A stretch of DNA of 38,933 nucleotides from a virus: the IMG/VR virus record IMGVR_UViG_3300044617_001123, positions 1 through 38,933 of that record; one strand, 5' to 3'. Shown here piece by piece: positions 1-29,060 of the stretch; within the stretch, counting starts at the first letter, position 1; every line of letters begins with the position of its first letter. Under the pieces are notes generated by a model, which was not told where the DNA came from, did no database searches, and saw only the letters and a program-made list of their open reading frames with translations. The translations under genes were made by a program, and so were the position numbers.

Positions 1-150
1 GTACGTTTTCTAGCACCGGAAGTACCAGCCAGCTTGCCGGATGCGGTGGCCCCGGTGTCGATGGCTTCTGCGGCGGCGGCGGTGGTGGTGCCAGCGGTAC
101 AAGCTCGCAAGCCGGTGCCGGTAGCTCTGGCGGTGGTAACGGTGGTTTGA
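1..150. repeat. Terminal direct repeat, left copy (contig overlap)
   Basis: The first 150 bases match the last 150 (38784-38933) at every position except 24, which is A here and G at 38807. The glycine-rich reading frame entering at the right end continues in phase here, so the window is a circular or circularly permuted genome opened at an arbitrary point. The mismatch changes a Thr codon (here) to Ala (right end). It is either real population variation or an assembly error. Confidence 0.95.
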
Positions 151-12623: not shown

Positions 12624-12760
12624 CAGTAGCCCCACGAAATCCTGAAGTCGATCAGCCATAGCACTACAAGAAATTCTTTTCCTCCGGCCATGAAGCCGAT
12701 GGCGAATACAGGCCACTTGTGCCTCATTGGTTCAATTTCAAACTTGAGTTTTTTCCTCAT
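12623..12760 (-). CDS. Small hydrophobic protein, unknown
   Basis: A 45-residue frame with a basic N-terminus (MRKKLKFEIEPMRHKW) and a largely hydrophobic remainder (PVFAIGFMAGGKEFLVVLWL) that could associate with the membrane. A GGAG ribosome site lies eight bases before the ATG. The start overlaps the upstream stop (ATGA) and the stop overlaps the next ATG (TGATG), so it fills its space exactly, which supports a real gene. Confidence 0.6.
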   Translation of the reverse strand: MRKKLKFEIEPMRHKWPVFAIGFMAGGKEFLVVLWLIDFRISWGY

Positions 12761-13143
12761 TCCTGTCTCTCCAAGCTAGCCGCACACACCGGGCAGACAT
12801 AGGTGACTGTGCGGTGTGGATGTCGCTGCGGTGGGGCGGTGTATAGAGGTGCTGCGCGAAACGTGTTACTGTCGTCTGACTGATGGTGGTTTGCGATGTA
12901 GGCCTCAATCTGCGCTTGTGTATCGCAGTGGGAATACAGCTTTCCGTTGCGGTTGCCACCAAAGTAGAACGCGCCCCACGCCACAGGCTCCTGCACCTCC
13001 TGCTTGGGTGTGTGCTCTGCCAGTGCGGCGCGGAGGGCGTGAATGGCGTCTATCTCAATGCCGACGGCGTTGTCGTCGTAGGTATCCGTCAATACTTCCA
13101 ACGCCTTCAGCGCTTGCTGCAATACTTCTCGTAGTGTGCTCAT
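12757..13143 (-). CDS. Cassette-array protein with MSTLREVLQQAL leader
   Basis: A 128-residue protein built of parts. The N-terminal leader (MSTLREVLQQALKALEVL) is shared with other genes of the array, an ALRAALAEHTP segment is shared with the gene at 14867, the middle (EPVAWGAFYFGGNRNGKLYSH) resembles a small domain common in phage hypothetical proteins, and the end carries a CPVC zinc half-knuckle. The initiation region, including the GGAGG ribosome site, is encoded by the last codons (RKEEKP) of the upstream gene. Function unknown. Confidence 0.7.
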   Translation of the reverse strand: MSTLREVLQQALKALEVLTDTYDDNAVGIEIDAIHALRAALAEHTPKQEVQEPVAWGAFYFGGNRNGKLYSHCDTQAQIEAYIANHHQSDDSNTFRAAPLYTAPPQRHPHRTVTYVCPVCAASLERQE

Positions 13144-13499
13144 GGCTTTTCCTCCTTGCGCATTGCGTCGATGGTGGCGTCTAGACCAAGGCGGCCATCG
13201 TCAACATGGAAGCCGATGCGCCAATACGCGCCAAGCCCTAAACGGTCATACGCCGATTCTTTGTACGCCTTTAAGGCAAGCCACCGATACCGCGCTGCAT
13301 CGGCCAGCAGCGCATCGCGCTCGGCCTTCCACTCTTCGGCGTCAGTCCTCCACCCCTCAGCGGTGGCATCGCACACTTGTTTGCAGCGTTGAAGTTCCGC
13401 ATGAAGGCGGCGCAGTTCTTTTGCTGTCTCCACAATAAGCTGTGCGGCGTCCAATTCATCAGCGAGCCGCAGTGCTTCAGGTTGTGTCGTGTCTGTCAT
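13140..13499 (-). CDS. Cassette-array protein with MTDTTQ leader, coiled coil
   Basis: A 119-residue protein that starts MTDTTQPEALRLADELDAAQ, then a coiled coil with many Leu, Glu and Arg (about 15-75), and a C-terminal AYWRIGFHVDDGRLGLDATIDAMRKEE part. The leader is the same as in the genes at 13496 and 15187. The final RKEEKP codons carry the ribosome site of the next gene. Similar proteins occur in many phage early regions as unknowns. Confidence 0.7.
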   Translation of the reverse strand: MTDTTQPEALRLADELDAAQLIVETAKELRRLHAELQRCKQVCDATAEGWRTDAEEWKAERDALLADAARYRWLALKAYKESAYDRLGLGAYWRIGFHVDDGRLGLDATIDAMRKEEKP

Positions 13500-13696
13500 G
13501 TCTTTTGCTCCAATGCCCATGTAATAGCCTCATGTGCTTCGTTCAGCGCAACGCGCAGCGTTGATAGCTCCATCCATAGATCCATCTCCATTTGCGCGTC
13601 ATGCGCTCTGGCTTTTTGCAGGAACTCGACAAGCTGCTCTGCTTTAAGAGCTCGGCGCTTCCACTGTTTGAGCGTCGGTTGTGTCGTGTCTGTCAT
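13496..13696 (-). CDS. Cassette-array protein with MTDTTQ leader, short
   Basis: A 66-residue helical protein (MTDTTQPTLKQWKRRALKAE and a Met/Leu/Ala-rich remainder) with ATGA overlaps at both ends. The first six residues and the DNA around the start are identical to those of neighbouring genes, while the rest differs. That indicates a common start grafted on different bodies. Function unknown. Confidence 0.65.
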   Translation of the reverse strand: MTDTTQPTLKQWKRRALKAEQLVEFLQKARAHDAQMEMDLWMELSTLRVALNEAHEAITWALEQKT

Positions 13697-13884
13697 GTCT
13701 CAATCTCCAGCACCACATGGCATGAGTGGTGCAGCGTTGATGGTTTTGCAAACCCCAATCGGCGCACGATGTACTGCGTACCGCTGGGCGTGTCGCGCTT
13801 GTGTCCGAGGAACTCATAGCGCTCGCCGGTGCGCTTCAAGCGAAAGCGCTGGCCCGGTTGTAGGTTTCGGACGCGGGCAGTCAT
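13679..13884. repeat. About 206-bp duplicated segment, copy 2
   Basis: This stretch is nearly identical to 15415-15623: a few scattered base changes and one extra codon in the other copy. It includes a complete 63-residue gene and the MTDTTQ start of the gene that follows. Such high similarity over a full gene and its junction points to a recent copying event. Confidence 0.92.
13693..13884 (-). CDS. Small beta-rich protein MTARVRN, duplicate of the gene at 15429
   Basis: A 63-residue protein containing VRNLQPGQRFRLKRTGERY and a hydrophobic, basic C-terminal part. The GQRF.L..TGE.Y pattern resembles small SH3-like or beta-barrel proteins annotated only as hypothetical in phages. It differs from its twin at 15429-15623 by one Val codon and few residues. 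Its upstream neighbour's stop overlaps its ATG, and a -1 slip in that neighbour would fuse the two. Confidence 0.7.
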   Translation of the reverse strand: MTARVRNLQPGQRFRLKRTGERYEFLGHKRDTPSGTQYIVRRLGFAKPSTLHHSCHVVLEIET

Positions 13885-14051
13885 CCAACTAGCCGATGCA
13901 CAGTGCGGCTCGCTGGTACAAGATTCAAAAAAAGGCCATTCCAATATGAGTATTTATTCCCGTTAAATCCGGGTGTATCAACTTGATAGAAGCCCTTGCG
14001 CACAGGCTTTTGATCGCCTGAGTACCATCCGGTTAGCTTTAGTTTGCTCAT
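13881..14051 (-). CDS. Short paralogue of the SYWNG protein at 19257, possibly frameshifted
   Basis: A 56-residue frame (MSKLKLTGWYSGDQKPVRKG and KYSYWNG near residue 38) related to the 81-residue protein at 19257-19502, which has LTPWFPGNVKPLRKG and FSYWNG. After SYWNG the two lose similarity, and here the frame soon ends with a TGA overlapping the next ATG. At 13926-13932 the minus strand reads T TTT TTG, a possible -1 slippery site; slipping there gives a continuous frame into the gene at 13693. AAGGA ribosome site, seven bases from the ATG. Confidence 0.6.
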   Translation of the reverse strand: MSKLKLTGWYSGDQKPVRKGFYQVDTPGFNGNKYSYWNGLFLNLVPASRTVHRLVG

Positions 14052-14329
14052 TTCATTCCTTCAATAGCTGATTGCATAATGGTGATGGCTTCGCGCAGTA
14101 CGCTGTAATTAGCCTTTCCTTTTGCCGATACATCTAAGTGCGCTGGAATACCTGCTTGCTGCAAAGCCTCCAACACCTTCACCATGTCTTCTTTGCTTAT
14201 GGGTGCTGGGTTTGGTTGGAGCGACTTAAGAATGCGCAAAATATCTCGATTGGCAAAGGTTCCGTGCAGTTCGTCGTATTGCGCCTGCGTCAGTGTGTAA
14301 GTAGTCAATACTTCTCGTTGTGTGCTCAT
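14048..14329 (-). CDS. Cassette-array protein with MSTQREVL leader
   Basis: A 93-residue, mainly helical protein: MSTQREVLTTYTLTQAQYDE, then a segment with two predicted helices (SKEDMVKVLEALQQAG and VLREAITIMQSAIEG). Only the first eight residues match the other array leaders. It starts inside the RKEGKP-TGA junction of the upstream gene and ends with its own ATGA overlap. Function unknown. Confidence 0.65.
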   Translation of the reverse strand: MSTQREVLTTYTLTQAQYDELHGTFANRDILRILKSLQPNPAPISKEDMVKVLEALQQAGIPAHLDVSAKGKANYSVLREAITIMQSAIEGMK

Positions 14330-14547
14330 GGCTTCCCCTCCTTGCGTGAGCGCATGTGGATGTCAATGGCTTCCTCATAAGATTCCGCATCGACCATAAC
14401 TACATGGCCAGACCAACTGGTCTTGACGGGATACCATTGCGTCAATCCGAGCGCTTCTTTGATTTCGCGCGAACCTTTTTGCGCAATGGCCGCATCACAG
14501 ACAAACGCCTCCAGCGCTTGCTGGGCGGCTTCGCGTAGTGTGCTCAT
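14326..14547 (-). CDS. Cassette-array protein, IAQKG..EIKEALGL family
   Basis: A 73-residue protein whose first 14 residues (MSTLREAAQQALEA) belong to the common leader and whose remaining part (AAIAQKGSREIKEALGL, SGHVVMVDAESYEEAIDIHM) is strongly similar to the C-terminal part of the gene at 15187. The shared body behind a different N-terminus shows that leader and body can be exchanged. It ends RSRKEGKP, the codons of which carry the next ribosome site. Confidence 0.68.
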   Translation of the reverse strand: MSTLREAAQQALEAFVCDAAIAQKGSREIKEALGLTQWYPVKTSWSGHVVMVDAESYEEAIDIHMRSRKEGKP

Positions 14548-14870
14548 GGCATTGCCTTTCCAATTTCTGCGGCCATGCGCACCGAAGCCGCACGGCGCGC
14601 CGCGTTTTTGTCGTCGTTGTGGCTGGCGAACTTCTCGGCCAGATAGCCGTGCTCGAAGTGGAAAACCTCTACTTGCTCGCGCTCCCACATCACACAGATG
14701 GAAAGCGCGGCCTCCAGTTGGGCGCATTGCCCATCGTTGCGCTTTGGGTTCCACGGCACATCACCGCCACCGATAACCGGCTCGACGATGCCCGGCACGA
14801 AGTCGGCGCGGTAGTAACCATGCACACCAGCAGCCTTCGCCGCCAGTTCCAGTAGTTCACGGTCTGTCAT
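14544..14870 (-). CDS. Cassette-array protein, unknown
   Basis: A 108-residue protein (MTDRELLELAAKAAGVHGYY at the start; WNPKRNDGQCAQLEAAL in the middle; a charged helical end with HNDDKNAARRAASVRMAAEIGKAMP). The LELAAKAAG..G.Y and WNP..DDGDALRLA-like arrangement recurs in phage hypothetical proteins and looks like a small mixed alpha/beta domain. Its start sits in the RKEGKL junction and its stop overlaps the next ATG. No function is assigned. Confidence 0.7.
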   Translation of the reverse strand: MTDRELLELAAKAAGVHGYYRADFVPGIVEPVIGGGDVPWNPKRNDGQCAQLEAALSICVMWEREQVEVFHFEHGYLAEKFASHNDDKNAARRAASVRMAAEIGKAMP

Positions 14871-15187
14871 AGCTTGCCCTCCTTGCGTGCTGCGTCGATG
14901 TTCTTCCGAGTGGCGGCTACGCACCTTTGCCCATTACCGCCAACGAGGCCGCTTACTGAGTCAACTCCAAACGATCCGTGAATCGCAATCCAATCCAGTC
15001 GAGCCGCATCCTCCGCATCCCCGTTGGGTGTGTGCTCTGCCAGCGCAGAGCGGAGGGCGGCGAGTGATTCGGTTGTGTTGCGCTTTGCCTGCTCAAGTGC
15101 AGATTCTGGCCACACCCACTTCTCGTAGTTGTCCCAGCCCTCCAACGCCTTCAGCGCTTGCTGCAATACTTCTCGTTGTGTGCTCAT
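14867..15187 (-). CDS. Cassette-array protein with MSTQREVLQQAL leader
   Basis: A 106-residue protein starting MSTQREVLQQALKALEGWDN, almost the same leader as the gene at 12757, followed by ALRSALAEHTP shared with that gene and a body (EDAARLDWIAIHGSFGVDSV) unlike it. The ATG at 15187 is preferred to the in-frame GTG at 15190. The C-terminal ARKEGKL codons hold the GGAGG ribosome site of the next gene. Function unknown. Confidence 0.7.
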   Translation of the reverse strand: MSTQREVLQQALKALEGWDNYEKWVWPESALEQAKRNTTESLAALRSALAEHTPNGDAEDAARLDWIAIHGSFGVDSVSGLVGGNGQRCVAATRKNIDAARKEGKL

Positions 15188-15432
15188 CACTTGCCCTCCT
15201 TGCGTGAGCGCATGTGGATGTCAATGGCTTCCTCGTGAGAGTTCGCCTCGACCATCACTACATGACCAGACAAACGGGTTTTGACGGGATAGCTCCGAGT
15301 CAAACCAAGCGCTTCTTTGATTTCGCGCAGACCTTTTTGAGCAATTAACGCATCTGATACATAGACAACCTCGCCGTTTTTGATGCCTATCGGTATTTGC
15401 CCATAGGCGTTCATTTGTGTCGTGTCTGTCAT
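15187..15432 (-). CDS. Cassette-array protein, IAQKG..EIKEALGL family, MTDTTQ leader
   Basis: An 81-residue protein whose N-terminus MTDTTQMNAYGQIPIGIKNG is unlike that of its relative at 14326. From ALIAQKGLREIKEALGL onward the two are strongly similar, including SGHVVMV and EEAIDIHMRSRKEGK. The protein resembles small phage proteins that bind through a central beta-hairpin, but no function is known. The stop overlaps the next ATG (TGATG) with the ribosome site in the last codons. Confidence 0.68.
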   Translation of the reverse strand: MTDTTQMNAYGQIPIGIKNGEVVYVSDALIAQKGLREIKEALGLTRSYPVKTRLSGHVVMVEANSHEEAIDIHMRSRKEGK

Positions 15433-15623
15433 GTCTCAATCTCCAGCACCACAACATGGCATGAGTGGTGCAGCGTTGATGGTTTTGCAAACCCCAAGCG
15501 GCGCACGATGTACTGCGTACCGCTGGGCGTGTCGCGCTTGTGTCCGAGGAACTCATAGCGCTCGCCCGTGCGTTTCAAGCGAAAGCGCTGGCCCGGTTGT
15601 AGGTTTCGGACGCGGGTGGTCAT
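15415..15623. repeat. About 209-bp duplicated segment, copy 1
   Basis: Partner of 13679-13884. The only length difference is one additional codon (Val) close to the 3' end of the encoded gene. The copies are about 1.7 kb apart in the same orientation, so homologous recombination between them would delete seven genes of the array. Confidence 0.92.
15429..15623 (-). CDS. Small beta-rich protein MTTRVRN, duplicate of the gene at 13693
   Basis: A 64-residue twin of the gene at 13693-13884, beginning MTTRVRNLQPGQRFRLKRTG. It lies in the same order relative to a MTDTTQ gene, so gene and junction were copied together. Two base pairs separate it from the upstream stop. The function is unknown; the short beta-rich, basic sequence would fit a nucleic-acid or protein-binding barrel. 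Confidence 0.7.
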   Translation of the reverse strand: MTTRVRNLQPGQRFRLKRTGERYEFLGHKRDTPSGTQYIVRRLGFAKPSTLHHSCHVVVLEIET

Positions 15624-15624
15624 G

Positions 15625-15816
15625 TCAATCCTTGAACGTGGGCAGCGGTGCCCAGTGCGTGTACCAGTTGTCATCCGTGGATAAATTGCCGTACTGCGCA
15701 ACCCCATAGAGGCGGTTGATGAGTTGTAGCTTCTGGCCGCGTGGGGTTTTTTTGTCGATGAGCCGCCAGTGGTAGCTTTCGTCCACTACTGCGGCCTTGG
15801 TGCTGTCCTGCTTCAT
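15625..15816 (-). CDS. Small early protein, unknown
   Basis: A 63-residue protein: MKQDSTKAAVVDESYHWRLI, a basic KKTPRGQKLQLINR part and an aromatic end (NWYTHWAPLP). The start ATG 15816 was chosen because it overlaps the MazG-like gene's stop (ATGA). The Trp-rich C-terminus ending near WAPLP resembles small phage proteins of unknown role. Confidence 0.65.
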   Translation of the reverse strand: MKQDSTKAAVVDESYHWRLIDKKTPRGQKLQLINRLYGVAQYGNLSTDDNWYTHWAPLPTFKD

Positions 15817-16115
15817 GCCTTGACAAAAACACCGTTTGGCAAAAGCGTTCCCTTGCGGTCTTTGATTTCGTCGTAAGCCAGCGCAAGGCATTCGGTCAGA
15901 TCAATGTCCCGCAGTGCGCAGTAGTTGATAAGACAGACCAGTACATCGCCCACACCGTCGCGGATTGCAGGCATGTCCCCTTTGTTTTCCGCGTCGGCAA
16001 GCTCACCCATTTCGGAGAAGGCTTTTAGTAACTGTGTGTGCGGTTTTGCGTTGGGGATGATGCGGCGTGCTTCTGCCCACTGGATTACGCTCATTTCAAG
16101 TTGCGCAAAGCTCAT
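15813..16115 (-). CDS. MazG-like nucleotide pyrophosphohydrolase
   Basis: A 100-residue all-helical protein with MazG-type metal-binding pattern: EMGELADA (E35, E38) followed by DGVGDVLV (D53, D57), and the typical AYDEIKDRKG and GVFVK ending of phage MazG-like proteins. These enzymes hydrolyse NTPs or dNTPs to monophosphate and pyrophosphate and may tune nucleotide pools or lower the host alarmone response. Its ATG overlaps the upstream stop by one base. The substrate cannot be told from sequence. Confidence 0.75.
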   Translation of the reverse strand: MSFAQLEMSVIQWAEARRIIPNAKPHTQLLKAFSEMGELADAENKGDMPAIRDGVGDVLVCLINYCALRDIDLTECLALAYDEIKDRKGTLLPNGVFVKA

Positions 16116-17197: not shown

Positions 17198-17635
17198 CTA
17201 AAACGGAATGTCGTCGTGCATGTCGTCAAAGCCGCTGCCGGTGTTGCTTTTGGGGGCTGGTGCCTGATCTTGCGGTGCGGGTGCAGGGGCGTCTGAGCTG
17301 TCAGCCCTCCCGCCAAGCATCCGCATCTGGTCGGCGCGAATATCGGTGGCGTAGTGGTCTACCCCTTCCTTCTGGTACTTGCGGGTGCGCAGCGAGCCTT
17401 CGACGTACACCTGCGAACCTTTGCGCAGGTACTGGCCGACGATCTCGGCCAAGCGGCCATAGAACGCAACGCGGTGCCACTCGGTGGCCTCCTTCATCTC
17501 GCCGGTCTGCTTGTCCTTCCACCTGTCTGTAGTGGCAATGGTGACGTTTGCCACCTGATCGCCGCTCTCGAATGTGCGGATTTCGGGGTCTCGGCCAAGG
17601 TTGCCTAAGATGATGACTTTGTTTACTGATGCCAT
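17198..17635 (-). CDS. ssb: Single-stranded DNA-binding protein
   Basis: A 145-residue SSB. The OB-fold (residues 1-105) has the conserved opening [18 protein letters not shown], the [14 protein letters not shown] strand and the [11 protein letters not shown] loop. A flexible Pro/Ala/Gln linker leads to the acidic tip DDMHDDIPF, which binds partner proteins in bacterial SSBs. It coats ssDNA in replication and recombination. Its neighbour upstream is an annealing-protein candidate, an association often seen in phage recombination modules. Confidence 0.95.
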
Positions 17636-17645
17636 GATGGCCTTT

Positions 17646-18317
17646 CTATGCTGCTTTTTTCAGGGTGTCGTTGTGGGCTTTGAGGGCTTTGCGGGTGGGC
17701 GCATCAAGGAATGACCAGGCGTAGGTTTTTTCCTCCGGATCCGTCAAACCCTCGTATTCGCCGTAGGCCCCAATAACGTCCTCCCTTGCCATGCACTCCT
17801 GAATAGCCGTCACAACGTCATCGCAAACCGATTTGCGCTCTGGGGTAACGTTCGATCCGTCAACAGGGCGATGCCGCACTACTTTTGGAGTGGGGGCTTC
17901 TTGCTCTGCATACCCTGATTCCAATGGAAGTTTTGCCCACAATTCGTAGGCCAGGCCAAACGTGAATGCAGCCGCCATACAAACGCCCCGGCGGTGGGTG
18001 TCGGTAATGTCCCGCGCTGTGATCTTGTCGACTGGTATCGCGGCGTTACGCACGTCCATGATTGCTTGCGGGACTGGTGGGGTTGTCTCCTCACCTTTGC
18101 GAAAACGGATCAACAGATACGCACCGACGGGGGCTTGGTGTAAAACGTACCCGTCTGGCGCGTTGACTAGCTCGGGTTGCCATCCTGGTGCATGTTCGCG
18201 CAATAGAGCCATTGTTCGCGACCAATTGATGTAGCTCGCCGTAAATCTGCCCGTGCCGATTTGCTCGACAAGGTTTGCCGTTGCAACCCCGGCTAGGTTT
18301 GGAATGGTGTTTGTCAT
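17646..18317 (-). CDS. Rad52-like single-strand annealing protein (DUF1071-like) candidate
   Basis: A 223-residue protein. The middle (about residues 95-130) has [24 protein letters not shown], close to the R-x-x-AKAIAxHGLG-type segment of the DUF1071/Sak3 annealing proteins. The N-terminus (residues 20-60, [19 protein letters not shown]) resembles their YLSWA..W opening. Such proteins anneal complementary ssDNA during phage recombination. The adjacent SSB supports the assignment. A C-terminal helical extension (from about 150) could bind SSB or ssDNA. Family membership is by eye. Confidence 0.6.
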
Positions 18318-18617: not shown

Positions 18618-18883
18618 TTGGCCTCCGCTACTGTGTAAGGTTTGCCGCGCTTTGGGATGCACGACAGAACATCTCCATCCCACTGCGCACGCGCTCCAGG
18701 CCCGCACACTTGCTGCCCCGCAAACTCGCGGGATGCTTTTGCGGCCTCTTCTTTCTGAATAACCTCAAGCTCTGCGGCCTGCTTAAATTCGTGCCCGTGC
18801 TCTTCGGCCTGCATGAATAAAAAAGCGCCGATAACGGCGCTTAGAACGATGGCTGTGAACCAGTTGGGATGTAGTTGGTTCAT
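18614..18883 (-). CDS. Membrane-anchored protein with extracytoplasmic domain
   Basis: An 89-residue protein. Residues 8-25 (WFTAIVLSAVIGAFLFMQ) form a membrane anchor, followed by a Glu/Ala/Lys coiled-coil stretch and a C-terminal part with two Cys (QQVCGPGARAQWDGDVLSCI), which may form a disulfide in the periplasm. Proteins with this GPGAR..W.GD...C end are common in phages, function unknown. It overlaps its neighbours by four bases each. Confidence 0.65.
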   Translation of the reverse strand: MNQLHPNWFTAIVLSAVIGAFLFMQAEEHGHEFKQAAELEVIQKEEAAKASREFAGQQVCGPGARAQWDGDVLSCIPKRGKPYTVAEAK

Positions 18884-19260
18884 GGTGCCTCTCCAGTGGC
18901 TTTGGAAATGGCCGTGTTGATGCGCTCAACAATGCCTATCGGTACGTCGTACTCGCTCCAGTAGTACGCGGATTGCTTCAGCTCTTGCAGAATTTGCAAC
19001 AACTCAGGCGCGGCTGCTATCAAGCGGGCGTTTGCTTCGGTAGTCGTAAGTTGTTGATTTAAAAGCGAAACGCTAATTCGCGTTTTGGCCTCCACGGCTT
19101 TGAGCCGCCTGATTTCGTCAACGACTTGCCAGAAGGTGCCGCCATGCCAGCCGCAGGCAGCGCATAGCGTGGTTAGTTGCGATTCGCTGATGAGGTCGTT
19201 CAGCTGCTTGAATTCGCGCTGCAGCTCTTTGCTGCGCTGTAGTGCTAGATCGCGGCTCAT
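18880..19260 (-). CDS. Helical early protein, unknown (APELL motif)
   Basis: A 126-residue helical protein. It begins MSRDLALQRSKELQREFKQL, has two Cys in TTLCAACGWHGGTFW, and a C-terminal ANARLIAAAPELLQILQEL segment. The NARLIAAAPELL motif is a widely repeated phage and prophage feature of unknown function, often placed after another exchangeable domain. It is coupled to both neighbours through ATGA overlaps. Confidence 0.7.
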   Translation of the reverse strand: MSRDLALQRSKELQREFKQLNDLISESQLTTLCAACGWHGGTFWQVVDEIRRLKAVEAKTRISVSLLNQQLTTTEANARLIAAAPELLQILQELKQSAYYWSEYDVPIGIVERINTAISKATGEAP

Positions 19261-19502
19261 GGCTTGGCCTTTGGGTCTTGGGCAAGGCCGCGCCAAGGTA
19301 GTTGTTGAATGTAGGATATGCGGTCCGTGTTTTCCGTCGATGCCGCAACCTCTGCGTTGTCATCGCCTGCTTGCCACGTCTTCCCATTCCAATAGCTAAA
19401 GTAGCTGGGGCCGCCGTCTAGCCACCAATCGCGCTCATACACACCCTTGCGCAACGGCTTCACATTGCCGGGAAACCACGGCGTCAATTTCTCTTTGCTC
19501 AT
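19257..19502 (-). CDS. SYWNG-family early protein, full length
   Basis: An 81-residue protein with KLTPWFPGNVKPLRKGVYER, FSYWNGKTWQAG and a C-terminal QQLPWRGL. It looks like a small beta-domain with Trp-rich loops. A shorter relative sits at 13881-14051. The W-x-P-G..KP.R.GVYE....YSYW-G..W pattern is common in phage hypothetical proteins. Function unknown. Confidence 0.7.
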   Translation of the reverse strand: MSKEKLTPWFPGNVKPLRKGVYERDWWLDGGPSYFSYWNGKTWQAGDDNAEVAASTENTDRISYIQQLPWRGLAQDPKAKP

Positions 19503-27615: not shown

Positions 27616-28042
27616 ACGTCTAACCCTGAGCCTTTACAACGCTCAGCAGGGCTATCAAGCCATCAAAACCGCATGGCTGCACGCTAAGGGATGGTTGCTC
27701 GCTGGCGATCAGCGATTGACGCTGGAGATTCGCCCGGAGAAGCGAAGTGACGCGCAGAACCGTTTATTGCACGCCTGCCTGAGTGAGATCAGCAAGCAAG
27801 TCGAATGGGCTGGTGCGAGGCGAGACGTTGACACATGGAAGCGCCTATTTACCGCCGCATGGCTTCGCGCCCGGGGTGAGCCTATTGAGATGCTGCCTGC
27901 TTTGGATGGGCATGGCGTTGACATTGTTTTTTGCAGAACGAGCCAACTTAGCAAAGCCGAGTGCGCGGAGCTTTCGGAGTTTGTGATGGCATGGGCAGCA
28001 GAGCGGGGCATTTATATGCCAGCGCCGGAGGGGTGGCAATGA
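27608..28042 (+). CDS. ninB: NinB family recombination protein
   Basis: A 144-residue protein with the NinB signature: a substrate strand LTLEIRPEKRSDAQNRLLHA, then LSEISKQVEWAGARRDVDTW, KRLFTAAWLRARGE and the C-terminal LSKAECAELSEFVMAWAAER. NinB (Orf of lambda) binds ssDNA and aids RecA-type loading in place of host RecFOR functions. Its stop overlaps the next ATG (ATGA). Confidence 0.88.
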   Translation: MAERLTLSLYNAQQGYQAIKTAWLHAKGWLLAGDQRLTLEIRPEKRSDAQNRLLHACLSEISKQVEWAGARRDVDTWKRLFTAAWLRARGEPIEMLPALDGHGVDIVFCRTSQLSKAECAELSEFVMAWAAERGIYMPAPEGWQ

Positions 28043-28276: not shown

Positions 28277-28546
28277 ATGAGGCTTGAAACAGATACTGGC
28301 AAGGCAGTCAAGGCCAATCGAGATGCTGGCAAACGCGAGCCACTACGCACCATTTCTGAATTGGCCGATGAGTTTGGAGTTACAAAACAGAGGCTCGGGA
28401 TGGCTCTTGCGAAGCCAGGAGCGCCGCAGCCTGTGTTTGATGGAAGTAAGACGTACAACATCATAAAAGCCAAATGGTTTAAGCCTTCTGAGGTTCGCGC
28501 TTGGTGGAGAAGTAATTATGCTGATTTACAAAAACCCAAAAGCTAA
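28277..28546 (+). CDS. Helix-turn-helix-like nin-region protein
   Basis: An 89-residue protein with an N-terminal segment and a winged-helix-like motif: LRTISELADEFGVTKQRLGM, then ALAKPGAPQPVFDGSKTYNI and WFKPSEVRAWW. This looks like a DNA-binding domain with recognition helix TKQRLG. Its end overlaps NinG by 29 bases. Target unknown. Confidence 0.65.
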   Translation: MRLETDTGKAVKANRDAGKREPLRTISELADEFGVTKQRLGMALAKPGAPQPVFDGSKTYNIIKAKWFKPSEVRAWWRSNYADLQKPKS

Positions 28547-29060
28547 ATCATGCGAAGTCTGCGAACGGTTGTTTGTGCCGGATCGAATGGGGCAGCTTGT
28601 GTGCAGGCCAGCGTGTGCATTGAAAAAGGTGCGCCAGGCCAAGGTGGAAGAACGAGCCAAGATCAAAACGCGCCGCGAGAAGGCCAAGACTACCGGACAG
28701 CGCAAGGCCGAAGCCCAAGCCGCGATAAATAAATGGGTTGTTCATGTGCGCTACAGGGATCAGCCGTGCATTTCTTGCGGGCGGTTTCATGAGGGCATGT
28801 ACCACGCTGGACATTACCGCAGCCGTGGAAGCGCGCCGCACCTTGCCCTAGATCCGCGCAATCTGCACAAGCAATGCGCCCCGTGCAATCTGCATTTGCA
28901 CGGGAACTTGATTGAGTACCGCAAGGGATTGATTGCCCGATATGGGATTTCCCATGTCGAGGAGTTGGAGTCCGATCAGACGCCACGCCATCTAAGCCAT
29001 GACGACATAGATGCCATCCGAGACACCTACCGGGCAAAACGCAAGGAGTTCAAGCCATGA
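28518..29060 (+). CDS. ninG: NinG (Rap) recombination nuclease
   Basis: A 180-residue protein. An N-terminal zinc part (KSCEVCERLFVPDRMGQLVC) precedes a basic Lys/Arg coiled coil, then the C-terminal domain with RYRDQPCISCGRFHEGMYHA, GHYRSRG and NLHKQCAPCNLHLHGNL, the cysteine/histidine HNH-like core of NinG. Lambda Rap is a structure-specific endonuclease for D-loops and Holliday junctions. It overlaps neighbours at both ends. Confidence 0.9.
   Translation: MLIYKNPKAKSCEVCERLFVPDRMGQLVCRPACALKKVRQAKVEERAKIKTRREKAKTTGQRKAEAQAAINKWVVHVRYRDQPCISCGRFHEGMYHAGHYRSRGSAPHLALDPRNLHKQCAPCNLHLHGNLIEYRKGLIARYGISHVEELESDQTPRHLSHDDIDAIRDTYRAKRKEFKP

Follow-up and report, generated by a model that had tools for sequence, protein, structure and literature searches.

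Short islands shared by unrelated genes mark probable sites of exchange in a small-gene array of a temperate phage

The window analysed here, a stretch of 38,933 nucleotides (nt) that constitutes an entire IMG/VR viral record (IMGVR_UViG_3300044617_001123), belongs to a temperate phage, as judged from the phage integrase (phrog_1), S24-type repressor, SSB, NinB and NinG that it encodes. On its minus strand, at 12757-15623, lies an array of 11 small genes that overlap mostly by ATGA, named so that g11 is the first transcribed and g1 the last. Almost no function was assigned to the array proteins by Pfam, NCBIfam or PHROGs, and no DNA similar to the window was found in annotated phages. Several of these genes share their starts (leaders A and B), a stretch inside the frame or their ends with genes that are otherwise unrelated. 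The genes and shared elements of the array, with the related contig L002 for comparison, are:

12757..13143, minus strand: g1, open reading frame with leader A, an ALRAALAEHTP island and a QEPVAW...PLYTAPPQ domain
12989..13039, minus strand: internal in-frame island ALRAALAEHTP in g1 (repeat D5, 82% with 15009-15059)
13096..13143, minus strand: leader A copy of g1, ~48 nt (repeat D3; 59/64 nt with g9, 67/77 with L002, flanks 22-43%)
13140..13499, minus strand: g2, leader B (MTDTTQPEALRLAD) and a DAARYRWL...IDAMRKEEKP end
13144..13160, minus strand: gene-end/Shine-Dalgarno module CGCAAGGAGGAAAAGCC at the g2 end (RKEEKP), one of four CGCAAGGAGG copies
13496..13696, minus strand: g3, leader B on a TLKQWKRR body (89% in L002)
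13693..13884, minus strand: g4 (MTARVRNLQPGQRF), duplicate of g11, 96% over 177 nt
13881..14051, minus strand: g5, apparently truncated paralogue of 19257-19502, with MSK..LT.W..G..KP.RKG.Y and YWNG in common
14048..14329, minus strand: g6, just 24 nt of leader A (MSTQREVL) fused to a TTYTLTQAQYDEL body
14326..14547, minus strand: g7, leader A (REAAQQALEA type) on an IAQKGxREIKEALGLT body in common with g10
14330..14346, minus strand: gene-end/Shine-Dalgarno module at the g7 end before g6, a CGCAAGGAGG copy
14544..14870, minus strand: g8, phrog_5086 member (E 6.7e-19, residues 1-107 of 108)
14867..15187, minus strand: g9, leader A, an ALRSALAEHTP island and a DAARLDW...IDAARKEGKL end (repeats D3 and D5)
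14871..14887, minus strand: gene-end/Shine-Dalgarno module at the g9 end before g8
15009..15059, minus strand: internal in-frame island ALRSALAEHTP in g9 (repeat D5)
15187..15432, minus strand: g10, leader B (MTDTTQ) and a g7-type body
15188..15204, minus strand: gene-end/Shine-Dalgarno module at the g10 end before g9, a CGCAAGGAGG copy
15429..15623, minus strand: g11 (MTTRVRNLQPGQRF), duplicate of g4

A repeat search recovered four copies of leader A, three of leader B (MTDTTQ), the 177-nt g4/g11 duplicate pair, a 198-nt repeat (85%) between the bodies of g7 and g10 and the 51-nt internal repeat D5 common to g1 and g9. A preliminary description of the sequence had reported two recurrent types of gene start, and its coordinates were all correct: leader A (ATGAGCACAC..CG.GAAG) has only four copies in the whole window, at 13143, 14329, 14547 and 15187, and ATGACAGAC occurs only at 13499, 13696, 14870 and 15432. 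The start at 14870, which it had regarded as related to the MTDTTQ type, shares ATGACAGAC and nothing more; as the phrog_5086 fit begins at residue 1, this g8 start is probably native rather than a transferred leader. Its observation that the genes at 14326 and 15187 share a body under unlike leaders is borne out by an aligned body identity of 86.5%. It had also remarked that several gene ends carry the ribosome site of the next gene. CGCAAGGAGG is present in only four copies, each a gene end preceding an array gene (RKEEKP in g2, RKEGKP in g7, RKEGKL in g9, RKEGK in g10), but the K-E-G residues are forced by AAGGAGG, the Shine-Dalgarno site, in the ATGA-overlap frame, so that these ends were not counted as evidence alone; the informative part of the word is only the CGC before AAGGAGG and the AAG after it. 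In g5, the part in common with the 81-residue MSKEKLTPWFPGNVKPLRKG protein (19257-19502) stops at YWNG, immediately before a T run.

Junctions were compared over -80..+120 by an ungapped match extended outwards from the ATG, the null being junction pairs drawn at random from all the phage loci compared, each junction with an ATGA overlap and a Shine-Dalgarno site and leader-A genes excluded. The null tracts scored 5.2 on average, with 12 at the 99% and 35 at the 99.9% level, while g3/g10, g1/g9 and g9/L002 scored 39, 49 and 61, all beyond 99.9% of the null. The near-identical tracts (g3/g10, 39/39 nt; g1/g9, 59/64; g6/g9, 92/101) give way to about 18-35% identity on the far side. The start of g10 is identical to the g4|g3 junction over its 39 nt, the tract stopping at +18, and leader B has there been set before the body's own ATG, which is still present (MTDTTQ|MNAYGQ). 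Similarly, g6 shares 38/41 nt with g1, and its tract with g9 stops at +24. Sequence comparison assigns leader B to the g2 family as its native start, since MTDTTQPEALRLANE follows, in contig L042, a g3 homologue that itself begins MTEPREPTLKQWK; in the window it has been placed before g3 and g10. Other relatives of g3 begin MTEPREPTLKQWKRR or MTENLITLKQWKRR, indicating that the leader of g3 was replaced. In 401 genomes the leader B pattern matched three starts that look like chance, and one viral match, L013, was unrelated.

The preliminary description had proposed aligning related loci, expecting identical junction words to flank different genes at one place, and this is what is found. The 44.8-kb contig L002 carries homologues of g4 and g3 in the order of the window, then a different gene at the place of g2, then a leader-A gene whose body resembles none in the window. 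The junction between g3 and the next gene matches the window at 88/95 nt, beyond which identity is 37%; the L002 junction to the leader-A gene matches that of g1 at 67/77 nt and that of g9 at 65/67 (-19..+48), with flanks of 17-43%. The L002 gene end is that of g9 (33/35 nt), yet the next gene starts differently, so gene ends and gene starts assort separately. Next to the g3/g4 homologues of two further contigs (L017 3062-3886; L042 4883-5713) lies a gene with an HNH-homing-endonuclease-like end, which could aid exchange there.

Leader A is widespread in IMG/VR. A degenerate pattern for M..LREAAQQALEA gathered a pool of at least 119 viral contigs in which genes start MxxLREAAQQALEAL, over ~45 nt of near-identical DNA; the figures in this paragraph refer to the matches listed, among which 98 genes are distinct. 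For the 88 non-colinear genes, mean positional identity is 0.29-0.31 at -90..-16 and 0.42 in the Shine-Dalgarno stretch (-15..-1), rises to 0.83-0.97 at +1..45 and is 0.27 from +60. Conservation extends to codon choice: the rare leucine codon CTA is retained in 76/88 leaders, and many free third positions exceed 85%. Seven of the 13 multi-member upstream families carry at least two unrelated bodies, with up to nine, and 9/13 body families stand behind at least two upstream ends. Where the upstream part is shared and the body differs, identity is lost at +41..48; where the body is shared and the upstream part differs, it begins at the ATG. Because these genes were selected by their leader, such limits alone would not prove exchange at it. 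Similarity was far higher at the junction than in the body, the comparison that the preliminary description had suggested.

The leader of g7 is nearly the consensus of this pool, and g11 has 25 related IMG/VR loci with varied neighbours. Residues 26-104 of the g1 body are ~60% identical to Pbunavirus proteins, for example F8 ORF070, which are without leader A; the QEPVAW domain of g1 corresponds, at ~60% identity, to the inner part of this 398-residue protein of a cultured Pbunavirus (Pseudomonas phage F8, 53937-55558; L206). Among INPHARED phages and plasmids, relatives of leader-A genes had only the body domains, the leader not being found, and the leader pattern had no match in GTDB genomes or in 251 genomes of the family of Acidovorax delafieldii, a species that holds a g3 homologue.

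The islands are not confined to gene starts. An internal island of the pool, ALRAALA, is identical with the D5 repeat of the window and is an exchange point there; its identity is 0.76-0.88, against ~0.28 in the unrelated flanks on both sides, and each of the 7/7 multi-member front families has at least two back halves. At the gene end, ALKEKN, the pool counterpart of RKEGK in the window, spells AAGGAG for the next gene and behaves in the same way over 22 distinct bodies. For island 2 (internal) and the tail islands together, identity is 0.65-0.99, against 0.25-0.31 in the flanks.

A viral scan with the upstream helix-turn-helix (HTH) gene alone, in which the leader was not used, returned 40 contigs sharing this gene, nearly all at 93-100% identity, with 16 unrelated families of next gene behind it; only half of the next genes at these 40 loci begin with full leader A. 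Among the others are hybrids: in MTTLREA|LRLADFLDD, leader A runs into the MSTQPEALRLADFLDD gene at GAAGCC; in MNTLREAA|LVAAAQREK (LVAAAQREKVAHWMR) it is fused into another gene. In L171 and L192 an 18-codon emptied gene, MNTLREAAQQALKEKNNG, is left, in which the leader is joined to the common tail at AGCAGGCGCTG and the body is lost; AGCAGGCGCTG is an 11-nt word common to leader and tail, and the deletions end exactly in it. A fixed gene, MKPSHLTTPRTLADCTFTTGY, follows the HTH gene at 0.5 to 2.4 kb, and between these two fixed genes stand 19 different arrays of 522-2351 nt. Behind the shared upstream gene, different leaders (A, B and MTTITxxRAVLEQ) occupy one place. That hybrids are seen again in separate metagenomes argues against errors of assembly. 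Being independent of the leader, this search is, at the level of sequence, decisive for exchange at the islands.

A candidate driver of the exchange and possible helpers are encoded in the window:

17646..18317, minus strand: putative single-strand annealing protein (Pfam SSAP_Sak, E 0.0041; phrog_21418, E 6e-54)
17198..17635, minus strand: SSB (PF00436, E 2.6e-37)
27635..28012, plus strand: NinB, Orf-like recombination mediator (PF05772, E 1.9e-39)
28530..29054, plus strand: NinG, Rap-like (PF05766, E 1.1e-49)

Phage recombinases of the Rad52-like kind are known to act on sequences that are short and diverged, possibly assisted by Orf and Rap (PMC3945230). In leader-A contigs a gene some 0.5 kb upstream of the HTH gene encodes a homologue of the putative annealing protein (77% over residues 5-140), so that the same putative annealing gene lies beside the array in both groups. 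In L164, L197 and other leader-A contigs this homologue is conserved for ~140 residues and then has a wholly different, proline-rich tail, which indicates that it is itself mosaic. The putative annealing protein had no NCBIfam match, and the protein was not found in 143 genomes of the class, a search that is uninformative, having had no positive control. We infer its role from position and relatedness; exchange probably proceeds by short-homology recombination via this protein. Directly upstream of the array lies a gene for a MazG-like nucleotide pyrophosphohydrolase (15813-16115; PF03819, E 4e-6). The protein at 18880-19296 contains ANARLIAAAPELLQILQEL and has the C-terminal end AISKATGEAP, which we take to be words frequent in many unrelated phage proteins and perhaps further exchange modules.

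The best explanation of these observations, to which we assign a probability of about 0.72, is that this temperate phage has in the array a gene-cassette locus, where short islands common to otherwise unrelated genes serve as landing places for short-homology recombination. The islands would be a start leader of ~20 or 45 nt, the in-frame ALRAALA stretch and a gene end carrying the Shine-Dalgarno site of the next gene. A crossover in an island could swap a body, add or delete a whole gene, or fuse two genes, and since the islands preserve reading frame, ribosome site and ATGA overlap, translation of the operon would be unbroken. Exchange would take place between phages and, by duplication (g4/g11, g7/g10), within one genome; the annealing protein, with SSB, NinB and NinG, may perform it during co-infection or against resident prophages. 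The preliminary description had likewise read the array as cassettes replaced at short homologous junctions between genes. The 16 next-gene families and 19 arrays agree with exchange at such junctions, but islands also lie inside reading frames, and the cassette reading extends to crossovers that yield hybrid and emptied genes.

Several points weigh against this explanation. Islands, unrelated flanks, re-assorted upstream genes, bodies and tails, hybrid leaders and emptied genes are seen directly, but the mechanism is read from them, and recombination itself was not observed. Most leader-A genes were gathered by the leader itself, only the upstream-gene search and the arrays between fixed genes being free of this bias, and the contigs are metagenome assemblies, though hybrid and emptied genes come from more than one data set. 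Changes in the leader have a nonsynonymous to synonymous (N/S) ratio of 0.31, so the peptide is also constrained at the protein level. While 3' leader alleles follow the body (0/300 permutations), 5' alleles are no more tied to the upstream gene than to the body (182/300), and with no linkage signal in them crossovers cannot be located inside the leader. The putative annealing protein scores 17.1 bits against Pfam SSAP_Sak, below the cut-off of 22.3; phrog_21418, which it matches strongly, is a family of unknown function; and its AlphaFold model is unusable (pLDDT 40).

Illegitimate recombination anywhere, followed by selection for intact translation, would make the shared starts and ends mere survivors. 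It is the standard model where boundary sequences are unseen (PMC3233612, PMC3029335), selection surely eliminates joints that break the frame, and some of the hybrids share just ~6 nt at the joint; we nevertheless consider it unlikely, as it gives no reason to expect near-identical DNA over 45 nt, even at synonymous sites, before unrelated bodies, or internal in-frame islands, or deletions that end exactly in the 11-nt word of leader and tail. The N/S ratio would suit a leader conserved as an N-terminal protein domain, an amphipathic docking helix on many effector bodies, with the DNA likeness following from the protein; LREAAQQALEAL looks helical, and the internal and tail islands are coding too. 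Against this account, which we also judge improbable, codon choice is conserved as well, leaders are cut and replaced (MTTLREA|LRLAD, and g6, which retains 24 nt), and the gene-end/Shine-Dalgarno modules and leader B behave alike with no common protein part. That the leader DNA is instead conserved as a regulatory RNA or translation element might be argued from its start exactly at the ATG, adjoining the Shine-Dalgarno site, and from the start-associated sequences (SAS) of cluster K mycobacteriophages, for which a regulatory role has been proposed (PMC12699233). Leader A shows no unusual folding (mean z -0.04) and no Rfam match, however, and different leaders stand at the same place, which makes a regulatory element very unlikely.

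Equally hard to sustain is local tandem duplication and divergence in one lineage, with exchange between phages unneeded. The window does contain clear duplicates, g4/g11 and g7/g10, but the bodies behind identical leaders are unrelated rather than diverged, L002 has the same leader and gene end with other bodies, and the 16 next-gene families and the 19 arrays at one locus contradict duplication as the sole cause. A more ambitious version of the cassette-locus explanation is that uncultured phages possess a dedicated cassette-diversification system, its islands maintained as recombination landing sites and its locus, beside an annealing gene, exchanging small early proteins. Such a system, which we regard as doubtful, would resemble an integron in exchanging cassettes at a fixed locus and differ from it in relying on annealing of coding islands instead of site-specific recombination. 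Of integron features, no Rfam match and no inverted repeat tied to the junctions were found, IntI not having been specifically searched for; the integrase of the window is of an ordinary phage family (phrog_1).

One model of mosaicism, according to phage genome comparisons, invokes homologous recombination at short boundary sequences; illegitimate joining has been attractive because such sequences are missing at most mosaic borders (PMC3233612, PMC3029335). The lambdoid boundary sequences or linkers (Susskind and Botstein 1978; Clark et al. 2001, HK620), as cited in these two papers, are short conserved stretches that lie between modules and at which homologous exchange has been proposed to occur. 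The present locus likewise has short conserved words at module borders and different modules between the same flanking genes, but its islands are largely inside frames (the leader spans +1 to +45, and island 2 is internal), are common to dozens of unrelated bodies and have left hybrid and emptied genes behind. It is a rich case of the boundary-sequence model, to which it adds that the locus is fixed, that islands occur in frames, with several to a gene, and that there are hybrid and emptied genes. The SAS/ESAS of cluster K mycobacteriophages are also short conserved sequences repeated at many gene starts in one phage group, but SAS have a 13-nt consensus near starts (GGGATAGGAGCCC) and a proposed role in expression (PMC12699233), whereas here conservation runs from the ATG to +45 and there is no conserved upstream motif beyond the Shine-Dalgarno stretch (0.42 in -15..-1, 0.29-0.31 upstream of -15). 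Domain mosaicism resembles the present case in the shuffling of protein fragments in phage genes; the survey of it (Smug et al. 2023, PMC10684548) required shared fragments of at least 50 residues, compared with ~15 residues and visible DNA joints here, and anticipates that mosaicism is higher among unknown proteins. Rad52-like recombinases (lambda Red, Erf, Sak) perform low-fidelity exchange via short or diverged homology (PMC3945230), and the window has a candidate annealing protein, SSB, NinB and NinG. In studies of these recombinases the homology is incidental, whereas the present array has standing landing sites, the same islands being found in it again and again. PeSLs, the mobile regulatory cassettes of T4-type phages, are intergenic promoter/stem-loop units whose repeated regulatory junctions allow modules to be shuffled; the junctions described here are instead overlapping coding sequence with no hairpin.

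The origin of phage mosaics, whether through exchange targeted to conserved boundary words or through joining at random and selection, has been an open question for decades, in part because such words are absent at most mosaic borders (PMC3029335). With words, many outcomes, hybrid joints and emptied genes at one locus, the two models make different, countable predictions. The array would also suggest a simple rule by which a phage may acquire a new small gene already fitted with a ribosome site and in the right frame.

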